Source of the DNA: Treponemataceae bacterium
GTDB lineage: Bacteria; Spirochaetota; Spirochaetia; Treponematales; Treponemataceae
NCBI GenBank assembly: GCA_024402435.1
Contig: JAKSTU010000002.1
Span: forward strand, 1-64,000
DNA: 64,000 nucleotides
Direction: 5' to 3'
Each line of letters opens with the position of its first letter. Position 1 is the first letter of the stretch. The notes beneath the pieces were generated by a model. It was given only the letters and a program-made list of their open reading frames with translations, made no database searches and was not told where the DNA came from. Both the position numbers and the translations under genes were made by a program. Of this stretch, positions 51,640 to 62,081 are shown piece by piece.

Positions 51640-54600
51640 ATGAAACGTTTATTCAGGCTTATTTTGTTCTTCTCTCTGTTTCTGACAATTGGTGCAGGTT
51701 CACTCTGCGCTTTCGGTCAGCGTGAGGACAAATATGCCGAAATAGACAGACTGATAGAAGAAAGAAATTACAATCTGGCTCTTTCAAAGCTCAAGAATGT
51801 TCTCAAGGCGAATCCTGATGACTTTGACAATGTTCAGCAGCGCATCGACAAAATAATGCTGGCTCAGGAAAACTACAGCAAACTGACGATGAAACTTGTT
51901 CAGGCTCTGAATGATCCCTATTCTGATGACGAAGAGATTCTTGAACTTTTTGATGCGGTTGCCGGTTTTGAGCAGAATCCCAACAAAGCAATACAGAGTT
52001 TCCTTGACAAAACGGAAGGCGTTCATGAATTCTTTGCAGTCAAAAATTCATTTTCAAAAATTGTTACGGAAGCCCGTGAACTTTTTGATCAGAAGCTTTA
52101 TGCCGAGTCCATGGACAAATACTGTGAAGCCTTGGACATTTATTACGACGAATTTCTTGAAGAATCATCCTACAACCTGATCCGCGATGACATTGTAGAC
52201 GTTATGACAACTCTGCGTGGCTGGTTTGATGAATCTTATGACATGTTCACTCAGCTCTGTGCATTGGATTACACGGAACTGAATTCCGGAACCGTTGCCG
52301 AAAAAAATGCATTGGCCGCAGACTATCTGGACTTGATTCTGCAGACTGCTGAACAGACAGAACAGACCGGTCTCTGGCTTGAAAAAACTTTCCAGACTCT
52401 GAACGATGCAGGCAGAATTTCCAACATTTCCTGGCTGTCCTTTGCATACAGAACTTTGTTGGGTTCAAAGGATTTCGGAGACTTCGGAATTGTTGACATT
52501 CTTATTGACGAATATGAAGTGGCAAGAAACAGCGTCTTTGATGCTGCTGTTGAAGGTGCGGAGACATTTCTTGCCCGTGCAGGAGAATTCAGGTCTGATT
52601 ACCTGAATGATCTGATGAACGCTGCTGAATGTTTTGACGGCACTTCATATTTTTCTGCCAATGACGAATATTCCCTGCAGGGCGGTTACCTGTGTCTTGA
52701 CATGAACAATCTTGCACAGGCGGTTCTTGCAATTGATGACAATGCCCGTGTTTATGCAGGTCTTCCTCTGTCACCGGTTCTGGAATTTGATGACACCGGC
52801 TGTCTTTTGGGCAAAGACGGTGCTGACTGTGCCGCATGGTTCGCCGACAGAGTTGCTTTCATAGAAAACACCCGCAAGCTTGTTGAAAAAGGGGAATCTG
52901 TTCTGGCGGCCGGTTCTGTCACAGATCTTCGCCGTCTTGAAAAATCCCGGACTGTGGTGGGCAAAGCCTGTGCCGTGCTCAAGACACGCTGTGACGATGC
53001 TGAAAAACTCATAGGAAATGCTGAAAGAGCATTGGTTGATTCTGTTGATGCTTTGGGCAGCAGTGCAGAAACTTTCTATGCTCAGCTTCTTGATGATTAT
53101 GACGGGATTTCCAAACTTTTTGCCTCCGATACCAATTGGAACCGCTTTGCCGCAGGAACTCTCATGGCTGACAGGACACGGGAAAAAATCCGCGAAAATG
53201 TGGACGGACTCAAGACTGTTAAAGCGGATCTGCTGAGTTACGGCGAACAGTATGCTCCTGCTGCCGAAAAAACTGATGAAGTTGCAGAACTTCTGCTTGA
53301 TCTTGATGAAAAAATCCTTGCAACCCGCGAAAAACTGTTTGCCAAGGCAGAATCTTCCAACAGGCTGATTGTTGAGATGAGCATTGCAAGTTTCAGACGC
53401 ATGGCTGAAGATTGGCGAATTTATCTTGATTCCTCTTTCTCTGAACAGGAACAGGCTTTCAACGGACTGCTTCAGAAAGCAGATCTTCTCTGGAAGCAGA
53501 AAAACTTTGCAGATGCAAGTCTCTGTCTTGAAGATGCGCTTGCTTTGTTCCAATGCCCGCCGGGTGCAGTTGCCCTGAAGATGCAGGCTGTCCTGGAAGC
53601 GGTTGAATCCTTCGGAATGCTTGATTATCAGCTGGCATATCAGGAATCCTTGTGGAAAGAACTTGCGGACTGCGGGGCAGAAAATCTGCTTTCTGCTGTC
53701 AGCGGAGAAATGGCCTTTGAAAGGGCAGTGTCTCTGACGCAGGAAATAAAAGAAATAAATGAAAAAACACGTTCTCTGCAAAGGGATTTGGATTCTTTAT
53801 ACAGATTCTGTGATGACAGCTCTGAAAGAATCAGTGTTGCCCACTTGAGTCGAATCCTGAACACAGGCTTGTCCGTGTCATCCGGTTTCGGTTTTGCAGA
53901 AAGAGTCGCACAATATGAAGAAAAAATCTTTGCAGATGCGGCTTCCTATGCGGAACTTTATTCAGAAATCTTTATCAGAAAAGGAATTGCACTTTTGGAA
54001 GAAAAGGCAGATTCTCCTCTGATTCTGACACAGGTGGAAAATGCTGAAAAACTTTTTGCTGTTGCCGCTGATTTTGACAATCCCTGTCTTGAAGGAAAAC
54101 TTGTTGCCTCAGAATTGAAAGAATTGGCTTTTGAAACAGAAGCGGCAGAAAAACTTTTCTCTGAATATGACAGTCTTCCTGTTTCTGACGGAACTGTATC
54201 AACAAAGAGCGCTTTCTACGGCGGAACATTGGATCTGCTTTCACGGCAAAGTGCAGAACTGCTTGCTTTCTCAAACCGGAACAAAGATTTTGCTGACGGA
54301 ATGCTCGGGCTGACGGACTTTGAAAATGAAGACACTCTGAATCATCCGGTTTTCGGAAGGGATGCGCAGACACTTCTTGCAGTTTACGACAAACTTTACA
54401 ATGACTCTCTTGAAAAACAGAACCGGATCAACGGGAGAATTGCAGTTCTTGTAAAAGACTTCAGCAGCAGTGTTACAGGTGTTTATTCTCCTTCGGCAAA
54501 TGCTGCGGAAGAAACTGCAGAACTTGTGCCCTCTGTAGAAAACTGGGACATTTTTGCAGTACGTGCAACAGAAAGTTCATTTGCTGTTGAAAAAGCACTT

Positions 54601-57249
54601 GAAGACAAAGAACTTCTTTTACAATGGCGGAAAACTTTTGCAGAAAAACCTGATTATTATTCTGATTTGAACACAGCTGCCTCTTACGCACTTTATTCTT
54701 TGGAATACGATTTGGAACGGCTTCTGGCTGCACAGGAACCAATTGCTGACAAAGCTTATTCATCTGCACGGCTGATTGCAGAGCGTTCCGTGGAGGAATC
54801 AAAAACTTTGGCAATCGCCTATCTTGCCAGTGTGGAAGCAGAGTTTGCCCAGCGGGAAGCAACTTACACAGCTTACATGGATGAAGGAAAAAAACTGTGG
54901 CAGAAGGGATTCTGGCCCGAAGCAACTGAAAGCATGATTCTTGCCATGCATGTTTACACTGTCGAGTCAGAAAAAATCAACGAAGTTTCAGAACAGTTCG
55001 AAAACAGGATTCGTGAATGGTGCCTTACAGAGGAAGATTTCCTGTCTTTGACCGGTTCTCTTGCTGCATATTCGGAAAATCCCGTAACAGAAAATCTCAT
55101 GGCTTTGGAAACTTTGTCAAAGGCTTATGATTACTGCCATAGTTCAGATGTTTTTGTTGAATCTCTCGCTGAATACACTGATTTCTTTGCTGCTGCTGAA
55201 TCGGACGAAACCCGTGTATTCGTGCGACATGTTCTGCGTACTGCAGAAAATTTTGCGGAACTGCTTGAAGACGGAAAATCAGATCTGGCACAGAAGAGCA
55301 TTTCTGCTTCAGAAATCAGTGCATCTCTTTGCATGAGAAGAAGTTTTGAATCTTTGGACAGCGAAGAATTTGAGAATGCAGAAGAATATCTGACTTTTGC
55401 ACAGAACTTCGGATCTTCTGCTGAAGAAGGACTTTATGTTCTTGGAAAAGCCCGCGCAATTGTTGCGGAAAGAATTTCCTATATCAGAAGAACTTGGGAA
55501 TATGAAGGACTTGTCAGAGAAGGAGAAAACTTTTCTGCTGACAATCCGGAAGTTGTCGGCTTTGTAACCAGTTTGACGGACAGTTATCATGCAAATGAAG
55601 AATTCAACACTTTCGGGCTGGAAATTCTTGCTGAATCTGAATATATGCTTTCTGATTCGGAAAATCATTTTGCAAAGGTTGTGGAAGCAGGCGATGTTTA
55701 TGCTGCAGAAATGACAGGAACATATCTGGAACGGAAGGATAAACTTTACGGACTTATTGAAAGTTCAACCGTAAATTATTGTTCCGAAATGCAGAATCAT
55801 TTTGACGGAACTGTCAGAACCGGTTATCAGCTTGCAAACTTTGAACTGGATGCTGACTTTGTTTCCAATCCTCAGGGCACGCTTGATCTGATCGGAGAGG
55901 ATTCTGTTCTCCTTGCCCAGGTTGAAAAGAACGTTATTGAACTTGAATCTGTTGTGGCCGATTATTCTGACCTGACATCCGTGTGCAGAAATCTGCTTGA
56001 GTCTGCAAAAGGCTGGAAAGCGGAATTCGCTTTGATGACGGATAAAGCTTCCAACCAGCTGCTGCTTGCAGGAAAAGCACTTAAAGAAGGAAATCTGCGT
56101 TATCAGGAAGCAAAGTCTGCTTATGACAGACAGAATTATTCCTCTGCTTTGTCGCTGATTCAGAAAGCCCGCGCAAAATACACGGAATCTCTCCTTTACA
56201 GCAATTCTGAAGCACTGCGCATTGAAACTGATGAAAAACTGAGCAGTCTTGGTGTACTTATTGCCCGCGCTGAAAACCAGAAAGTGGTCGGTGAAGTACG
56301 TACAATGAAGACAAATGCCAAAAATGAATATTACGCCGGAAACTTTGAAAATGCAGAGCGTATTCTGCTTCAGGCAAAGAACAGATGGGCTGCGACAAAT
56401 GCAGAAGAAGATGCGGAAATCACGTCTCTTCTGGGAATGGTCGGTACTGCTCTTGCAATGAAGACAGGCCGCACTTTGTCCGTAACTTCTCCGTTGTATT
56501 CCGAAGTCAGCCAGATGCTGAGCATTGCAAACCAGTTCTTCCTCCGCGGCAAGAAAATGTCCGGCGGCACTTTGACCGATGATGCAAGAGACGCGCTGAT
56601 GGCAGCAAAAGAGAAGATTCAGGCCGTACAGGTCGTATTCCCGTTGAATCAGGAAGCAAGCCTTATGTCCTTGCGCATTGAGCAGCTGCTGAACCCTGAA
56701 AACTTTGCCGTGTATTTTGCAAAGCGGGCCGAAGAAGCAATGTCCGCATGGCCCGAAGCCGTTGTTAAGCAGACTGTTTATGTTGATCTGATTGACCTTT
56801 ATGAAATCAACCCCGATTATCCCGGATTGGGCAAATTCATAGAAAATGCTGAAATTGAACTGGGCATTCGTGTTGTGCCGCCTGATACTACAGCAATTGA
56901 AGAATCCAAAACTCTTTACAGACAGGCACTTGCACTGTTCAATGCAAACAGCCGGGATGAAATTGCCCTCAGAAACGCTCTTGCAAGAACTGACGAAGCT
57001 TTGACCAAAAACCCGGACAACGAAGATGCACAGATTCTGAAAGACAGAATCAACATTGCAATGGGCGGAACGGGAACAATTGTCCTGCCGACTGAAGCAG
57101 AAATGCAGTATCAGAAAGCTCTTCAGGAACTGCAGAAAGGAAACATCGTTCAGGCGGCGGCAATCGTAACAAAACTGATGCAGAACGAAACTTACCGCAA
57201 ATCGGTAAAACTTATTGACTTGAAGAAGAAGGTGGACGCGCTGTTATGA
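51640..57249 (+). CDS. Giant secreted helical/TPR-like protein of unknown function
   Basis: 1869 residues after a signal peptide ending SLCAFG (about residue 26). The whole mature protein appears alpha-helical and acidic, rich in Glu, Leu, Ala and Ser. TPR-like pairs stand out near the N-terminus (EERNYNLALSKLKNVLKANP, about 40-59), and again near 1477-1520 (YDRQNYSSALSLIQKARAKY) and 1557-1580 (YYAGNFENAERILLQAKNRW). No catalytic motif or membrane helix after the signal was seen. It overlaps the sensor-phosphatase gene by four bases (ATGA), so the two are translated together, suggesting a periplasmic scaffold or ligand for that sensor. I do not recognise a named family. Confidence 0.85.
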   Translation: MKRLFRLILFFSLFLTIGAGSLCAFGQREDKYAEIDRLIEERNYNLALSKLKNVLKANPDDFDNVQQRIDKIMLAQENYSKLTMKLVQALNDPYSDDEEILELFDAVAGFEQNPNKAIQSFLDKTEGVHEFFAVKNSFSKIVTEARELFDQKLYAESMDKYCEALDIYYDEFLEESSYNLIRDDIVDVMTTLRGWFDESYDMFTQLCALDYTELNSGTVAEKNALAADYLDLILQTAEQTEQTGLWLEKTFQTLNDAGRISNISWLSFAYRTLLGSKDFGDFGIVDILIDEYEVARNSVFDAAVEGAETFLARAGEFRSDYLNDLMNAAECFDGTSYFSANDEYSLQGGYLCLDMNNLAQAVLAIDDNARVYAGLPLSPVLEFDDTGCLLGKDGADCAAWFADRVAFIENTRKLVEKGESVLAAGSVTDLRRLEKSRTVVGKACAVLKTRCDDAEKLIGNAERALVDSVDALGSSAETFYAQLLDDYDGISKLFASDTNWNRFAAGTLMADRTREKIRENVDGLKTVKADLLSYGEQYAPAAEKTDEVAELLLDLDEKILATREKLFAKAESSNRLIVEMSIASFRRMAEDWRIYLDSSFSEQEQAFNGLLQKADLLWKQKNFADASLCLEDALALFQCPPGAVALKMQAVLEAVESFGMLDYQLAYQESLWKELADCGAENLLSAVSGEMAFERAVSLTQEIKEINEKTRSLQRDLDSLYRFCDDSSERISVAHLSRILNTGLSVSSGFGFAERVAQYEEKIFADAASYAELYSEIFIRKGIALLEEKADSPLILTQVENAEKLFAVAADFDNPCLEGKLVASELKELAFETEAAEKLFSEYDSLPVSDGTVSTKSAFYGGTLDLLSRQSAELLAFSNRNKDFADGMLGLTDFENEDTLNHPVFGRDAQTLLAVYDKLYNDSLEKQNRINGRIAVLVKDFSSSVTGVYSPSANAAEETAELVPSVENWDIFAVRATESSFAVEKALEDKELLLQWRKTFAEKPDYYSDLNTAASYALYSLEYDLERLLAAQEPIADKAYSSARLIAERSVEESKTLAIAYLASVEAEFAQREATYTAYMDEGKKLWQKGFWPEATESMILAMHVYTVESEKINEVSEQFENRIREWCLTEEDFLSLTGSLAAYSENPVTENLMALETLSKAYDYCHSSDVFVESLAEYTDFFAAAESDETRVFVRHVLRTAENFAELLEDGKSDLAQKSISASEISASLCMRRSFESLDSEEFENAEEYLTFAQNFGSSAEEGLYVLGKARAIVAERISYIRRTWEYEGLVREGENFSADNPEVVGFVTSLTDSYHANEEFNTFGLEILAESEYMLSDSENHFAKVVEAGDVYAAEMTGTYLERKDKLYGLIESSTVNYCSEMQNHFDGTVRTGYQLANFELDADFVSNPQGTLDLIGEDSVLLAQVEKNVIELESVVADYSDLTSVCRNLLESAKGWKAEFALMTDKASNQLLLAGKALKEGNLRYQEAKSAYDRQNYSSALSLIQKARAKYTESLLYSNSEALRIETDEKLSSLGVLIARAENQKVVGEVRTMKTNAKNEYYAGNFENAERILLQAKNRWAATNAEEDAEITSLLGMVGTALAMKTGRTLSVTSPLYSEVSQMLSIANQFFLRGKKMSGGTLTDDARDALMAAKEKIQAVQVVFPLNQEASLMSLRIEQLLNPENFAVYFAKRAEEAMSAWPEAVVKQTVYVDLIDLYEINPDYPGLGKFIENAEIELGIRVVPPDTTAIEESKTLYRQALALFNANSRDEIALRNALARTDEALTKNPDNEDAQILKDRINIAMGGTGTIVLPTEAEMQYQKALQELQKGNIVQAAAIVTKLMQNETYRKSVKLIDLKKKVDALL

Positions 57250-60200
57250 CAAAGAAACGCCTTTTTGCATTTGCATTCGCATTGATTTGCGCAACAGCGC
57301 TGCTTTCTGCACAAAGCGGGCTGAGTTTTGATGAAATGTATTGGGAACATCCTTCTGTTGTTTCCACGGGAGACGGACGTTTCCCGCAGACTGCAACAAA
57401 ACCGGCCACCACTTATGTGCCGCCGCCGGAAGAAATTGTGCTTCCTGATGAAAACCTGCTTCTTGAAGGCATTGAAGCTCCGTTGGATCATTCCGATTGC
57501 TCCGGAAGTGTAACCGACCGACTTGCTTCTGATTATGCAGCTTTTCTCGGTTCTGACTTTCCCGATTTTTTCATTGAAAGCCTTGAACTGTGGGAAGCAG
57601 AAAACCCGCTTGCTGCGGAAGAAAGCCCGATAATTGCGGACAAAGAAAAAGAAATCATTCCGGTTTGCAAAGATGCTGTAATTTGGGAAGAAATTGAAGT
57701 CAAAGAAGGGGGAGGCCAGGTCTGGCTTTCCGGTATTCTTTACAGCGATGAATCCGGCGTGGAAAGAAAACTTGATCGTTTTGCGGGGCCTTTTCCCTAT
57801 GCCGGCGAAGTTCCGCGGCTTTTTTCCTGTGCTTTGAGCCATGAAGGAATTCTGGCTGTTGCCGCACTCACTGACGTAAGACAGATGGAAGTCTTCACCA
57901 TTACTGACTTCGGTGGAAACATTACAAGAACCCCGTTGAACCAGAACGGCTATTCCCTTGTTGCCCCGCGAATTTTCCCTGCTTCTGACGGATCATTCAT
58001 GCTTTTTGCAACTCAGGGACAGAACGAAACATTTTCGATTTACTGTTCCCAGTCGGACAATGGCTTTGAATGGACTGATTTTTCTGAATTCTCCGCATCT
58101 GTCGGACTCCAGAATCCTTTTGTGCCGACTCTTCTTGCAACTGACTGGGGCGATTACGTTGTGTTCCAAAGTTCATTCCTGTCCGGCGACCGTTATTCTT
58201 TCCAGCTGTACGGAACCCTCAAGGACAAAGAAACAGGTGAGTGGTCTGAGCCTTTGCTTCTTACTGCCAACTCTGCGGACTTTACGGATTATGACAACCA
58301 GAATGCAGTTGCCGGTGTCTGTGACGGACTGATTTATCTTGCCTGGGAACGGAGCGATCTGTCTTCCCGGCCCCAGATTTACGCCTGCGCAATTGATCCG
58401 GAAACTGCGGGAATTGTGACAGGTCCAAGCCGTGTTTCTGTCGGCGACGGCGCAGAAAACTCGCCTTTTTTCGTCAATCTTATGGGAACGCCTACGGTTT
58501 TCTGGTCAGACAACCGAAGCGGAATCAGTTCTCTATATTTCGCAGGCTTCAACGGCTTTTTCTGGGATGAAAACTCCTGGGATTATGAAAGCGATAATCT
58601 GCTTTTTCCGAAACTTTCAGCTGTCTCGGAAGATTCATTCTCCCTTGTGTGGCAGGAGCCTGCAGGAAAGCAGTATGCAATCAAGCGGATTACACCGGAC
58701 AGGACAGTGGCAGCTCCTTCTGTCAAAGCATATTCCTTCAGAGTGGGACGGCGTTATGCAACTGCAAAAGCCCAGTTCTCAGTTTCTCTGCCGGAAGACT
58801 CGTCTTTTGTAATGGGATACTCATACTCCTGGTCAAAAGATCCTGAAGTTGAACCAAGTTATTCAGAATTGGACATTGTTACAGATTCCCTGTGCACAGT
58901 TTATCCTACGTCAGACGGAACCTGGTACTTCAAGGCCCGCGCATTGGATTATGCCGGCAACTGGTCTTTGTGTGAAAGCGTACCTTATGTTTATGACATA
59001 ACGCCTCCTCCGGCCCCTGTCATTACATTGCCGCCTTTTGACGATTACGGATTCCTTACATCCAATACCTTTGACATGTCATGGTATGTGCCTGTCAGAA
59101 ACGGTGACGTCAATGACGTAGTGGGATACACGTACAATTTGGAATACATGGGCGTAACAGCCCGGTCTGTGGTGGACAGGGAATATCTTGATTCCCAGCG
59201 GTGGGGACTTCCTGAAAAACTGCCTGCTTTTGTTGTAAGCGGATCCAGAATGATTAATTACGAAAACCGGGATGACGGTGTTTATGCTTTCTCCGTGTCT
59301 GCAATTGACAGTGCCGGAAACATCGGACCCCGTTCCATAAAATACTTTGCACTAAACAAATACATTCCTTATACATCGATTTATGCACTTTCTGTGGACA
59401 TAGACCAGTTCGGAATAATCAGCATAGGCATAAGCGGACGCGGATTCACCACGGACGGAAACGTAGAAGCCGTATACGTTCATCCTGCAGGACAGCCTTA
59501 TGAAAGCGGCGTTCCTGTAGAATTCACCATTGAATCGGACAAGATTATTTCCGGAATTACTGTTGCCGGCCTGTTCCGCGGTGATTATGCGGTTACTCTT
59601 GTTCATCCTGCACGCGGTCCTTATGAATCGGTACAGACTTTCTACACCGATGAATACGGAACAGTCAAAATGGGAGATTATACACAGGTCTATGAACCCA
59701 AATCCCTTGAACTGGTTTCGAACGAAGACTTTATTATCCAGCTTTACAAGATTCTTATTTCTCTTGCCGTTCTGTGCGTGGTTATCGGGGTGTTCTCGGT
59801 CATCAAAGCCACGGTCAATTCTGCAAGAGATGTCCGTTCAGTAAACAAACAGGTAAAAGCACTTATCCAAGGAGAGACTATGCCTTCAATCATAAGAGAA
59901 AACAAACGGGATTCAAGACAGAAAGGATTGAGCTTCAAATACAGGCTCGCATTCTTTACCTCAATTCTGGTTCTTGGCGTTGTACTTTCAGTTTCTTTGA
60001 CACTGGGATTCGTTTCCTTCAGAAACCAGCAGCAGATGCTGACTCAGGCTCTTAAAGAACGTGTTGATGTAATGCTTGAAAGCCTTGCTTCCGGTGCAAA
60101 AGCTTACCTTCCCACTCACAACACTCTTGAACTGAGTCTTCTGCCGAATCAGACGGAGAACCAGTCAGACATTGAATTCGCTTCAATCATCGCTTTGAGC

Positions 60201-62081
60201 GAAGATGCTTCAAATACAGGAATCAACTGTGTCTGGGCCAGCAACGACCCTGAAATCATGGACATAATCGATACGCCGGAACTGGCTTACGGAACTTCCC
60301 GCGCTGTTTCAGACCGGTATCTTGAAGTTGCTGAAAGATGCGTTGCCCTTAACAACAGCGGTACGGAAGAAATCCGTGAACTTGCCCGTAATATTTCAGA
60401 ACTGAACTTGGAAGGTGTTTCTCTTGCCCTCAGTGATGATGAAGAATCTCAGGCCAGATTTGAAGAAATACAGATTATTACTACAGCACTTCAGAGCAGG
60501 CTGAATACTGAACTTTCTGATCTTGCCAACAGCGGTACAGGTTCAATTCCTGAGTTCCCCCTGGATTCAATTGACGAAGAAAACAGTCACTATCTTTTCT
60601 ATAAACCTGTAGTTTTCAGACAGGGTTCTGATCAGATTTTTGTTCGCGGTGCAGTTCTGCTTCAGGTTTCTACGGAACAGATGCAGATTGTGGTAAACGA
60701 AACACGCAATCAGGTAATTCAGACAGCAGTTCTTATTTCTCTTATTTCAATGATCATCGGAATTTTCGGTTCTCTTGCAATGGCTTCATACATTATTGTT
60801 CCTGTGCGCAAACTTGCAAAACATGTGGAAATGATCCGTGATACGGAAGACAAGGAAAAACTAGCCGGACGCAATATTGAGATCAAATCACGCGACGAAA
60901 TCGGTATGCTGGGTGACTCTGTGAATGAAATGACCAGCGGACTTGTAAAGGCTGCCGCTGCTGCAAAGGATCTTACAGTCGGAAAGGAACTGCAGAAAAT
61001 GTTCATTCCTCTTGAAACAGACCGTTCCGGCCGCAAACTTACTACAGGTTCAATGGATGACAAAAAGGCGCAGGTTTTCGGTTATTACGAAGGTGCAAAA
61101 GGTGTTTCCGGTGACTATTTTGACTGTCTTAAACTTGATGACAAGCATTACGCACTGATCAAGTGCGACGTTTCCGGTAAAGGTGTGCCTGCTGCCCTTA
61201 TCATGGTTGAAGTTGCAACACTGTTCCTGAATTACTTCAAAGACTGGAGCTACAGCAAGGACGGCTACAATCTCGGCCCTGTGGTGTCTCAGATCAATGA
61301 TCTGATAGAAAGCCGCGGTTTCAAAGGGCGTTTTGCAGCGTTTACTCTCTGCATTTACAATTCTGACAACGGTGATCTTTATTTCTGTAATGCAGGTGAC
61401 AAGCTTATACACATTTATGATGCGGCTGAAGGCAAAAAGAAAACCATAACATTGCAGGAAACCGCCGCCGCCGGTGTATTCCCTTCATTCATTGTGGATT
61501 CAAAGGGCGGCTTCCAGGTGACAAAGCTTCATCTTAATCCGGGGGACGTGCTTTTCCTTTACACTGACGGTATTGAAGAAGCAAAGCGCATGTTCCGTGA
61601 CAAGCATTTCAACGTGATTTCATGCCAGGAACCGGGTCTTGCAGAAGGCGAAGTTCACGGAATGCATCTTGTGGGCCAGGACAACGAAGAAATGTCTCCT
61701 GAACGCGTTGATGCAATCATCGAAGCTGTGTTCAGCCGCGGTGTCTACAAACTTGAAAAATACCACAACCCGATTGACGGTGAAACTCTGGAATTTGATT
61801 TCTCACGCTGTTCCGGCACTGCAGAAGATGCTGTCATGGCACTGGTTTCCGTAGAAAAGGTTTTCCGTATGTACAAGACTCCTGATGTTCAGCCCAAGGA
61901 CAAAATCCTTGTTGATTCAAAAATCGACGCATTCCTGAACAGATGCTTTGTCCAGTACAACGACTATTGTGCTTATCGTGAAGATCATCCTGATTATCCT
62001 GAATACAAGTATTACACACGTGTAAAAGAGGATTCTCAGTACGACGACCTTACGCTGGTTGCCCTCAAGCGGAAGGTCTGA
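57246..62081 (+). CDS. Giant transmembrane sensor with SpoIIE/PP2C phosphatase domain
   Basis: 1611 residues. A signal peptide (1-22) leads to a large exported region: about 150-510 reads like a beta-propeller with repeated strand units and exposed Asp/Trp motifs, then about 515-830 like fibronectin-III modules (SYSWSKDPE, YFKARALDYAGNWS). Membrane segments follow near 838-857, 900-922 and 1157-1180, with a second exported sensor region (924-1155) between the last two. After a HAMP linker (about 1183-1240) comes the SpoIIE phosphatase with D1290 in SGDYFDC, D1308 in CDVSGKG and a closing DDLTLVALK near 1600. It probably dephosphorylates a cytoplasmic protein in response to an envelope signal. 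No antagonist is encoded nearby. Confidence 0.9.
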   Translation: MTKKRLFAFAFALICATALLSAQSGLSFDEMYWEHPSVVSTGDGRFPQTATKPATTYVPPPEEIVLPDENLLLEGIEAPLDHSDCSGSVTDRLASDYAAFLGSDFPDFFIESLELWEAENPLAAEESPIIADKEKEIIPVCKDAVIWEEIEVKEGGGQVWLSGILYSDESGVERKLDRFAGPFPYAGEVPRLFSCALSHEGILAVAALTDVRQMEVFTITDFGGNITRTPLNQNGYSLVAPRIFPASDGSFMLFATQGQNETFSIYCSQSDNGFEWTDFSEFSASVGLQNPFVPTLLATDWGDYVVFQSSFLSGDRYSFQLYGTLKDKETGEWSEPLLLTANSADFTDYDNQNAVAGVCDGLIYLAWERSDLSSRPQIYACAIDPETAGIVTGPSRVSVGDGAENSPFFVNLMGTPTVFWSDNRSGISSLYFAGFNGFFWDENSWDYESDNLLFPKLSAVSEDSFSLVWQEPAGKQYAIKRITPDRTVAAPSVKAYSFRVGRRYATAKAQFSVSLPEDSSFVMGYSYSWSKDPEVEPSYSELDIVTDSLCTVYPTSDGTWYFKARALDYAGNWSLCESVPYVYDITPPPAPVITLPPFDDYGFLTSNTFDMSWYVPVRNGDVNDVVGYTYNLEYMGVTARSVVDREYLDSQRWGLPEKLPAFVVSGSRMINYENRDDGVYAFSVSAIDSAGNIGPRSIKYFALNKYIPYTSIYALSVDIDQFGIISIGISGRGFTTDGNVEAVYVHPAGQPYESGVPVEFTIESDKIISGITVAGLFRGDYAVTLVHPARGPYESVQTFYTDEYGTVKMGDYTQVYEPKSLELVSNEDFIIQLYKILISLAVLCVVIGVFSVIKATVNSARDVRSVNKQVKALIQGETMPSIIRENKRDSRQKGLSFKYRLAFFTSILVLGVVLSVSLTLGFVSFRNQQQMLTQALKERVDVMLESLASGAKAYLPTHNTLELSLLPNQTENQSDIEFASIIALSEDASNTGINCVWASNDPEIMDIIDTPELAYGTSRAVSDRYLEVAERCVALNNSGTEEIRELARNISELNLEGVSLALSDDEESQARFEEIQIITTALQSRLNTELSDLANSGTGSIPEFPLDSIDEENSHYLFYKPVVFRQGSDQIFVRGAVLLQVSTEQMQIVVNETRNQVIQTAVLISLISMIIGIFGSLAMASYIIVPVRKLAKHVEMIRDTEDKEKLAGRNIEIKSRDEIGMLGDSVNEMTSGLVKAAAAAKDLTVGKELQKMFIPLETDRSGRKLTTGSMDDKKAQVFGYYEGAKGVSGDYFDCLKLDDKHYALIKCDVSGKGVPAALIMVEVATLFLNYFKDWSYSKDGYNLGPVVSQINDLIESRGFKGRFAAFTLCIYNSDNGDLYFCNAGDKLIHIYDAAEGKKKTITLQETAAAGVFPSFIVDSKGGFQVTKLHLNPGDVLFLYTDGIEEAKRMFRDKHFNVISCQEPGLAEGEVHGMHLVGQDNEEMSPERVDAIIEAVFSRGVYKLEKYHNPIDGETLEFDFSRCSGTAEDAVMALVSVEKVFRMYKTPDVQPKDKILVDSKIDAFLNRCFVQYNDYCAYREDHPDYPEYKYYTRVKEDSQYDDLTLVALKRKV

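Follow-up and report, generated by a model that had tools for sequence, protein, structure and literature searches.

Little is known about how spirochetes, which have an unusual envelope, relay information from their outer membrane into the cytoplasm. The locus described here raises the question of what a secreted helical protein and a large transmembrane phosphatase encoded side by side might do together, and with which partners. Within the 64,000-nucleotide stretch of Treponemataceae DNA that we analyzed (the window), a gene for a secreted, all-helical, TPR-like periplasmic protein of 1869 aa, which we call the scaffold (51640..57249), precedes a gene for a propeller sensor-phosphatase of 1611 aa (57246..62081); both lie on the + strand, as do all window features given below. 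An earlier interpretation (the sequence-only reading) had placed two ORFs of exactly these lengths here, joined by an ATGA overlap (57246..57249), and had proposed that they form one unit, in which a giant scaffold might measure the periplasm or peptidoglycan and the phosphatase might signal by dephosphorylation. We found both ORFs as described and intact.

The scaffold and phosphatase genes are inherited as a pair

We surveyed a sample of 59 genomes of relatives, along with samples of the class and the phylum. The long, propeller-bearing form of the phosphatase is present in 35 of the 59 relatives and the scaffold in the same 35, directly upstream of the phosphatase wherever both are on one intact contig; in G028, the two genes sit at the ends of two contigs. 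The 4-bp overlap seen in the window is common (19 loci) and the flanking genes are variable. Six genomes (G007, G011, G017, G019, G030 and G048) have a short phosphatase of 734-900 residues without the propeller, and our search of these six for a scaffold gene found none (0/6). Even in distantly related families of the phylum, the long phosphatase gene follows a recognizable scaffold gene (L183-L187, L199-L201). The gene pair is real and old: the sequence-only reading had named independent occurrence of the two genes as the observation that would speak against a single unit, and our synteny survey of relatives and remote families shows the opposite. Further, a gene for a TPR-like protein lies directly upstream of phosphatases of ~515 or ~1180 residues in distant families (L188, L189, L202, L203), which suggests that the cassette is older than its propeller form. 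The genes flanking the pair in the window (gltX, GH36, pfkB and ArsR) were looked for at the other loci and recur at none, which sets them apart from the system.

A propeller ectodomain on a conserved PP2C phosphatase

The phosphatase combines a signal, three TM segments, a HAMP domain (E 2e-7) and a SpoIIE domain (E 1.4e-25). Its extracytoplasmic part begins with a sialidase-like beta-propeller (residues ~25-480; 57318..58685), which is indicated by BNR_2 repeats (Pfam; 14/23 family members), by matches of the family profile to sialidase propellers and by an AF2 model compared using Foldseek. Residues ~55-136 of the window copy (57408..57653) are a low-confidence insertion in this propeller, absent from most homologs, which align from residue ~144, and modeled at pLDDT <50. 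Ig-like or Y_Y_Y-like beta domains follow (residues ~490-800; 58713..59645), with Big_13 matches in 11 and Y_Y_Y matches in 2 of the 23 members and strands in the AF2 model. TM1 (residues 835-853; 59748..59804), TM2 (residues 907-925; 59964..60020) and TM3 (residues 1161-1179; 60726..60782) are membrane-segment predictions. Between TM2 and TM3, the AF2 model has a mixed alpha/beta domain (residues ~930-1155; 60033..60710), which by topology would be a second extracytoplasmic, sensor-like domain. The model, covering residues 24-1223 with a mean pLDDT of 74.5, resembles sialidases and the periplasmic propeller/Y_Y_Y sensor of BT4663 (Foldseek).

On the cytoplasmic side, HAMP (Pfam; residues 1179-1233; 60780..60944) is followed by the SpoIIE/PP2C phosphatase (Pfam; residues ~1278-1611; 61077..62078), which matches at 90.8 bits against a cutoff of 25 in the window copy and is found in 23/23 members. 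Its metal-binding aspartates are kept across the family, D1290, D1308 and D1441 in 39/39 sequences and D1600/D1601 in all 38 that have residues there; because of this conservation, the enzyme is probably active. In the family alignment, a conserved insertion of ~130 residues (residues 1457-1590; 61614..62015) sits within the PP2C fold between the TDG and DD motifs, and the Pfam match stops at 1450. Envelope sensing with dephosphorylation as the output is the best reading.

This architecture can be compared with two known types. Like the SpoIIE/RsbU-type sensor phosphatases of partner-switching systems, it joins a HAMP domain to a SpoIIE/PP2C domain whose metal-binding aspartates are intact, but it differs from them in its ~850-residue periplasmic propeller/Ig ectodomain, in the PP2C insertion, and in having an obligate scaffold neighbor and no adjacent STAS or kinase gene. 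The Bacteroidetes hybrid two-component systems (e.g. BT4663, PDB 4a2m; Foldseek E 6e-11) likewise place a periplasmic propeller and a Y_Y_Y/Ig-like sensor on a membrane signaling protein. In contrast to these, the propeller here is of the sialidase type, additional scaffold and outer-membrane partners are present, and the output is a phosphatase rather than a kinase; domain searches of the window phosphatase found no histidine kinase or receiver domain.

A helical scaffold with conserved ends

The scaffold has a single hydrophobic segment (residues 7-25) and no other membrane segment; together with the signal-like N-termini of homologs, this indicates a signal peptide at approximately residues 1-24 (51640..51711). 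An N-terminal domain (residues 26-131; 51715..52032; profile NT, 91 bits) and a second N-terminal helical domain (residues 135-314; 52042..52581; profile N2, 52 bits) are followed by an expanded, lineage-specific middle (residues 315-1445; 52582..55974) and by the C-terminal domain (residues 1446-1869; 55975..57246; profile CT, 498 bits), which is the most conserved part and is kept in all members. Domain searches found no curated family for the scaffold. Its TPR-like character, proposed in the sequence-only reading, is supported by several weak TPR matches in homologs and by the AF2 model of a relative (L102, 986 residues), which is all helix at a mean pLDDT of 78; in the window copy itself, TPR_16 stays below threshold (E 0.003, 18.5 bits against a curated cutoff of 32.7), and the structure matches of the L102 model are weak and of a generic solenoid/TPR kind.

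The sequence-only reading had treated giant size as a feature of the system, which our survey does not support: complete scaffold homologs elsewhere have 881-1304 aa, and the "giant" scaffold of 1869 aa is peculiar to the window organism. Its two ends (residues 1-314 and 1446-1869) are conserved and enclose ~850 residues more than relatives have. If the window scaffold bridges the same gap as its relatives, it must be folded or looped. Two weak N2-like segments occur in the middle (residues 605-687 and 1074-1257). We rejected the idea that the expansion arose by recent duplication within the gene, since no exact 25-mer is repeated and strong DNA repeats are lacking. Base composition does not point to a foreign insert either, with a GC of 0.44 that is within the 0.43-0.47 of the flanks, although third-position GC is lower (0.36). 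We also observed that at L077:5673-8677 and L193:6193-9134 a frameshift or sequencing error divides the scaffold between two ORFs.

An outer-membrane protein is inherited and lost with the pair

The pair co-evolves with a third component, located in the outer membrane, which the sequence-only reading had overlooked. Clustering of neighboring genes revealed that a divergently transcribed gene of ~430 residues adjoins the scaffold gene in most loci, and that it encodes a UPF0164/FadL-like outer-membrane protein (OMP) with a C-terminal TPR tail (PF03687 in 20/20 sequences of family alignment A5; E 1.3e-58 for the OMP of the window genome). A 2018 paper described UPF0164 as specific to T. pallidum (PMC6197692); we find PF03687 across Spirochaetota. 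Of the 35 genomes with the pair, 33 also have an ortholog of the OMP, and the remaining 24 relatives have none (Fisher p 1.5e-14, with no correction for phylogeny); the two exceptions among the 35 are assemblies that are 70-81% complete, with a contig end at the locus. The OMP is kept even where it is unlinked to the pair, as in G004 and in the window genome, where a 460 aa ORF at G000:C60:18531-19787 encodes one of the more divergent copies (4th of 42).

Losses are shared as well. Both states occur within each of the genera g1, g2, g5 and g12, where some genomes have all three genes and others, with a completeness of at least 93%, lack scaffold and OMP; this points to repeated joint loss. At L094 and L097, the neighboring genes c3 (GH57) and c4 (DUF4912) are kept, and OMP, scaffold and phosphatase ectodomain have been lost as a block. 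A GH57/branching-enzyme-like gene and a DUF4912 gene adjoin the three at about 20 loci (e.g. L061:1840-4091) and stay behind after such losses.

The reverse case, a scaffold without an OMP, occurs in 2 of the 36 scaffold genomes of the class sample (G262, G278) and in the genomes of L101 and L111. The N-terminal ~105-residue domain of the scaffold is absent in exactly these four (<=3.4 bits), which retain the C-terminal domain; among complete scaffolds of OMP-bearing genomes, it never scores below 47 bits. This pattern suggests that the N-terminal domain may be there for the OMP, with the C-terminal domain serving the phosphatase. These four form a small clade, so the domain loss may be a single event; the clade also indicates that the pair can work without the OMP. 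A distance-matrix correlation, run without a control gene, was strongest between the scaffold C-terminus and the ectodomain and between the ectodomain and the OMP, and showed no specific link of the N-terminal domain to the OMP. This result agrees with the C-terminal half of the domain assignment and is neutral on the N-terminal half.

A putative trans-envelope signaling module

Given that the three genes are inherited together and lost together, they probably form one signaling chain across the envelope. We consider it probable, judging from genomic patterns, that scaffold, propeller phosphatase and FadL-like OMP are the three components of a trans-envelope signaling module of spirochetes; the divergent transcription of the OMP gene, its separation from the pair in some genomes, the clade that keeps the pair without it, and the lengthened scaffold of the window count against this reading. 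That this is an undescribed class of trans-envelope machine, ancestral in Spirochaetota and present also in Treponema pallidum, in which a physically wired barrel, scaffold and phosphatase let events at the outer membrane control phosphorylation in the cytoplasm, is a possibility that we advance tentatively.

In the proposed module, the UPF0164/FadL-like barrel with its periplasmic TPR tail would sense or import a hydrophobic or other external cue. The scaffold would span the periplasm, its N-terminal domain binding the periplasmic side of the barrel and its C-terminal TPR-like domain docking on the propeller/Ig ectodomain of the inner-membrane phosphatase. The TM helices and the HAMP domain would then pass the signal on and switch the PP2C domain in the cytoplasm, which would dephosphorylate a Ser/Thr-phosphorylated partner; the likeliest candidate is a STAS protein of the anti-anti-sigma type whose gene lies elsewhere. 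Contacts, direction of signaling, STAS-type substrate and ligand are all steps that we infer, and the output is the least certain of them. We looked for STAS or RsbW-like genes beside the pair and found none, both families being encoded elsewhere in most genomes; in the T. pallidum-like genome, STAS proteins are present along with one marginal RsbW-like ATPase match. Classical sigma partner-switching is therefore uncertain.

Relay from an outer-membrane component through the periplasm to an inner-membrane regulator is established for FecA-FecR and RcsF-IgaA. The module has no protein families in common with these and differs in bridging the periplasm by a large helical protein and in having a PP2C phosphatase as output. 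The phosphatase and the OMP come from known domain families and trans-envelope signaling is a known class; the embodiment here is not. In the literature on SpoIIE, partner-switching or propeller phosphatases in spirochetes, we found the pair in proteome lists alone, with no description of the pair or of the triad as a system.

Alternative explanations

The OMP might instead be co-regulated with, or supply a co-imported nutrient to, a two-component envelope sensor without touching it, the scaffold being an obligate periplasmic subunit of the phosphatase that binds ligand or activates. The pair is indeed tighter than its link to the OMP, always occurring together with translational coupling by the ATGA overlap in many loci; one clade retains it without the OMP, and the distance correlation is strongest for the scaffold C-terminus with the ectodomain. 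However, the absence of the OMP from 24/24 pair-less genomes, its retention when unlinked, and the finding that scaffolds in OMP-free genomes have lost precisely their N-terminal domain make this explanation unlikely.

It is still less probable that barrel and scaffold are a periplasmic conduit for hydrophobic nutrients with the phosphatase as feedback regulator. The OMP does belong to a family with TPR tails, and a role in the uptake of fatty acids or other hydrophobic nutrients has been proposed for its T. pallidum members (PMC8407342), but we saw no lipid-binding fold in the helical scaffold (AF2 model of a homolog and structure comparison), and the sole co-varying inner-membrane partner is a signaling protein and not a permease.

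A ruler or sensor of envelope architecture tied to periplasmic flagella or peptidoglycan, close to what the sequence-only reading had envisaged, appears very improbable. Flagellin is encoded in all genomes with the module, which is absent from 5 aflagellate relatives and from 7 aflagellate genomes of the phylum sample. Yet these belong to few families, and hence represent few independent events, and many flagellated genomes (including those of family f7) lack the module. The scaffold differs about two-fold in length between relatives, which argues against a fixed-length ruler of the periplasm, and we found nothing pointing to peptidoglycan binding. Finally, that the propeller would be an active sialidase-type virulence enzyme is hardly credible: the fold is sialidase-like with several conserved Arg columns, and TPANIC_0854, annotated as a SpoIIE phosphatase, has been listed as sialidase-like by structural similarity (PMC10600179), but the propeller forms one protein with a HAMP-phosphatase, is on the periplasmic side judging by topology, and has Asn in the window copy at the conserved Arg column 353.

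The probable counterpart in Treponema pallidum

In the T. pallidum-like genome G025, the pair lies at 926.6-934.6 kb and is followed by three divergent UPF0164 genes at 934.9-938.8 kb. Published Nichols coordinates place tp0856, tp0858 and tp0859 at 932,966-937,198 (PMC8407342), and on this basis the G025 pair is very probably TP0855/TP0854. The T. pallidum counterpart of the three-component module would then consist of the FadL proteins (TP0548 family), TP0855 as scaffold and TP0854 as phosphatase. TP0855, an abundant "hypothetical protein", has been placed among the putative OMPs (PMC11668736) and is IgG-reactive (PMC13343974). The T. pallidum FadL-like OMPs (TP0548, TP0856, TP0858, TP0859 and TP0865) are UPF0164 proteins with C-terminal TPR tails, as is the co-evolving OMP, and have been studied as transporters and as leading vaccine candidates; we found no published link from them to TP0855/TP0854. 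Their tails have been noted as protein-interaction domains, and the partner suggested for them is speculative (PMC8407342). Our data offer candidates, the N-terminal domain of TP0855 as partner of the FadL TPR tail and TP0854 as inner-membrane receiver, and give a context both to the abundant TP0855 and to TP0854 with its sialidase-like listing.

Among minor features of the loci, a small helical protein of 102-156 aa with no Pfam match, absent in the window, is encoded just downstream of the phosphatase at L069:14190-14498 and at 12 other loci. In the T. pallidum-like genome, three UPF0164 genes stand in a row (L074:14726-18804), where other treponemes have one.
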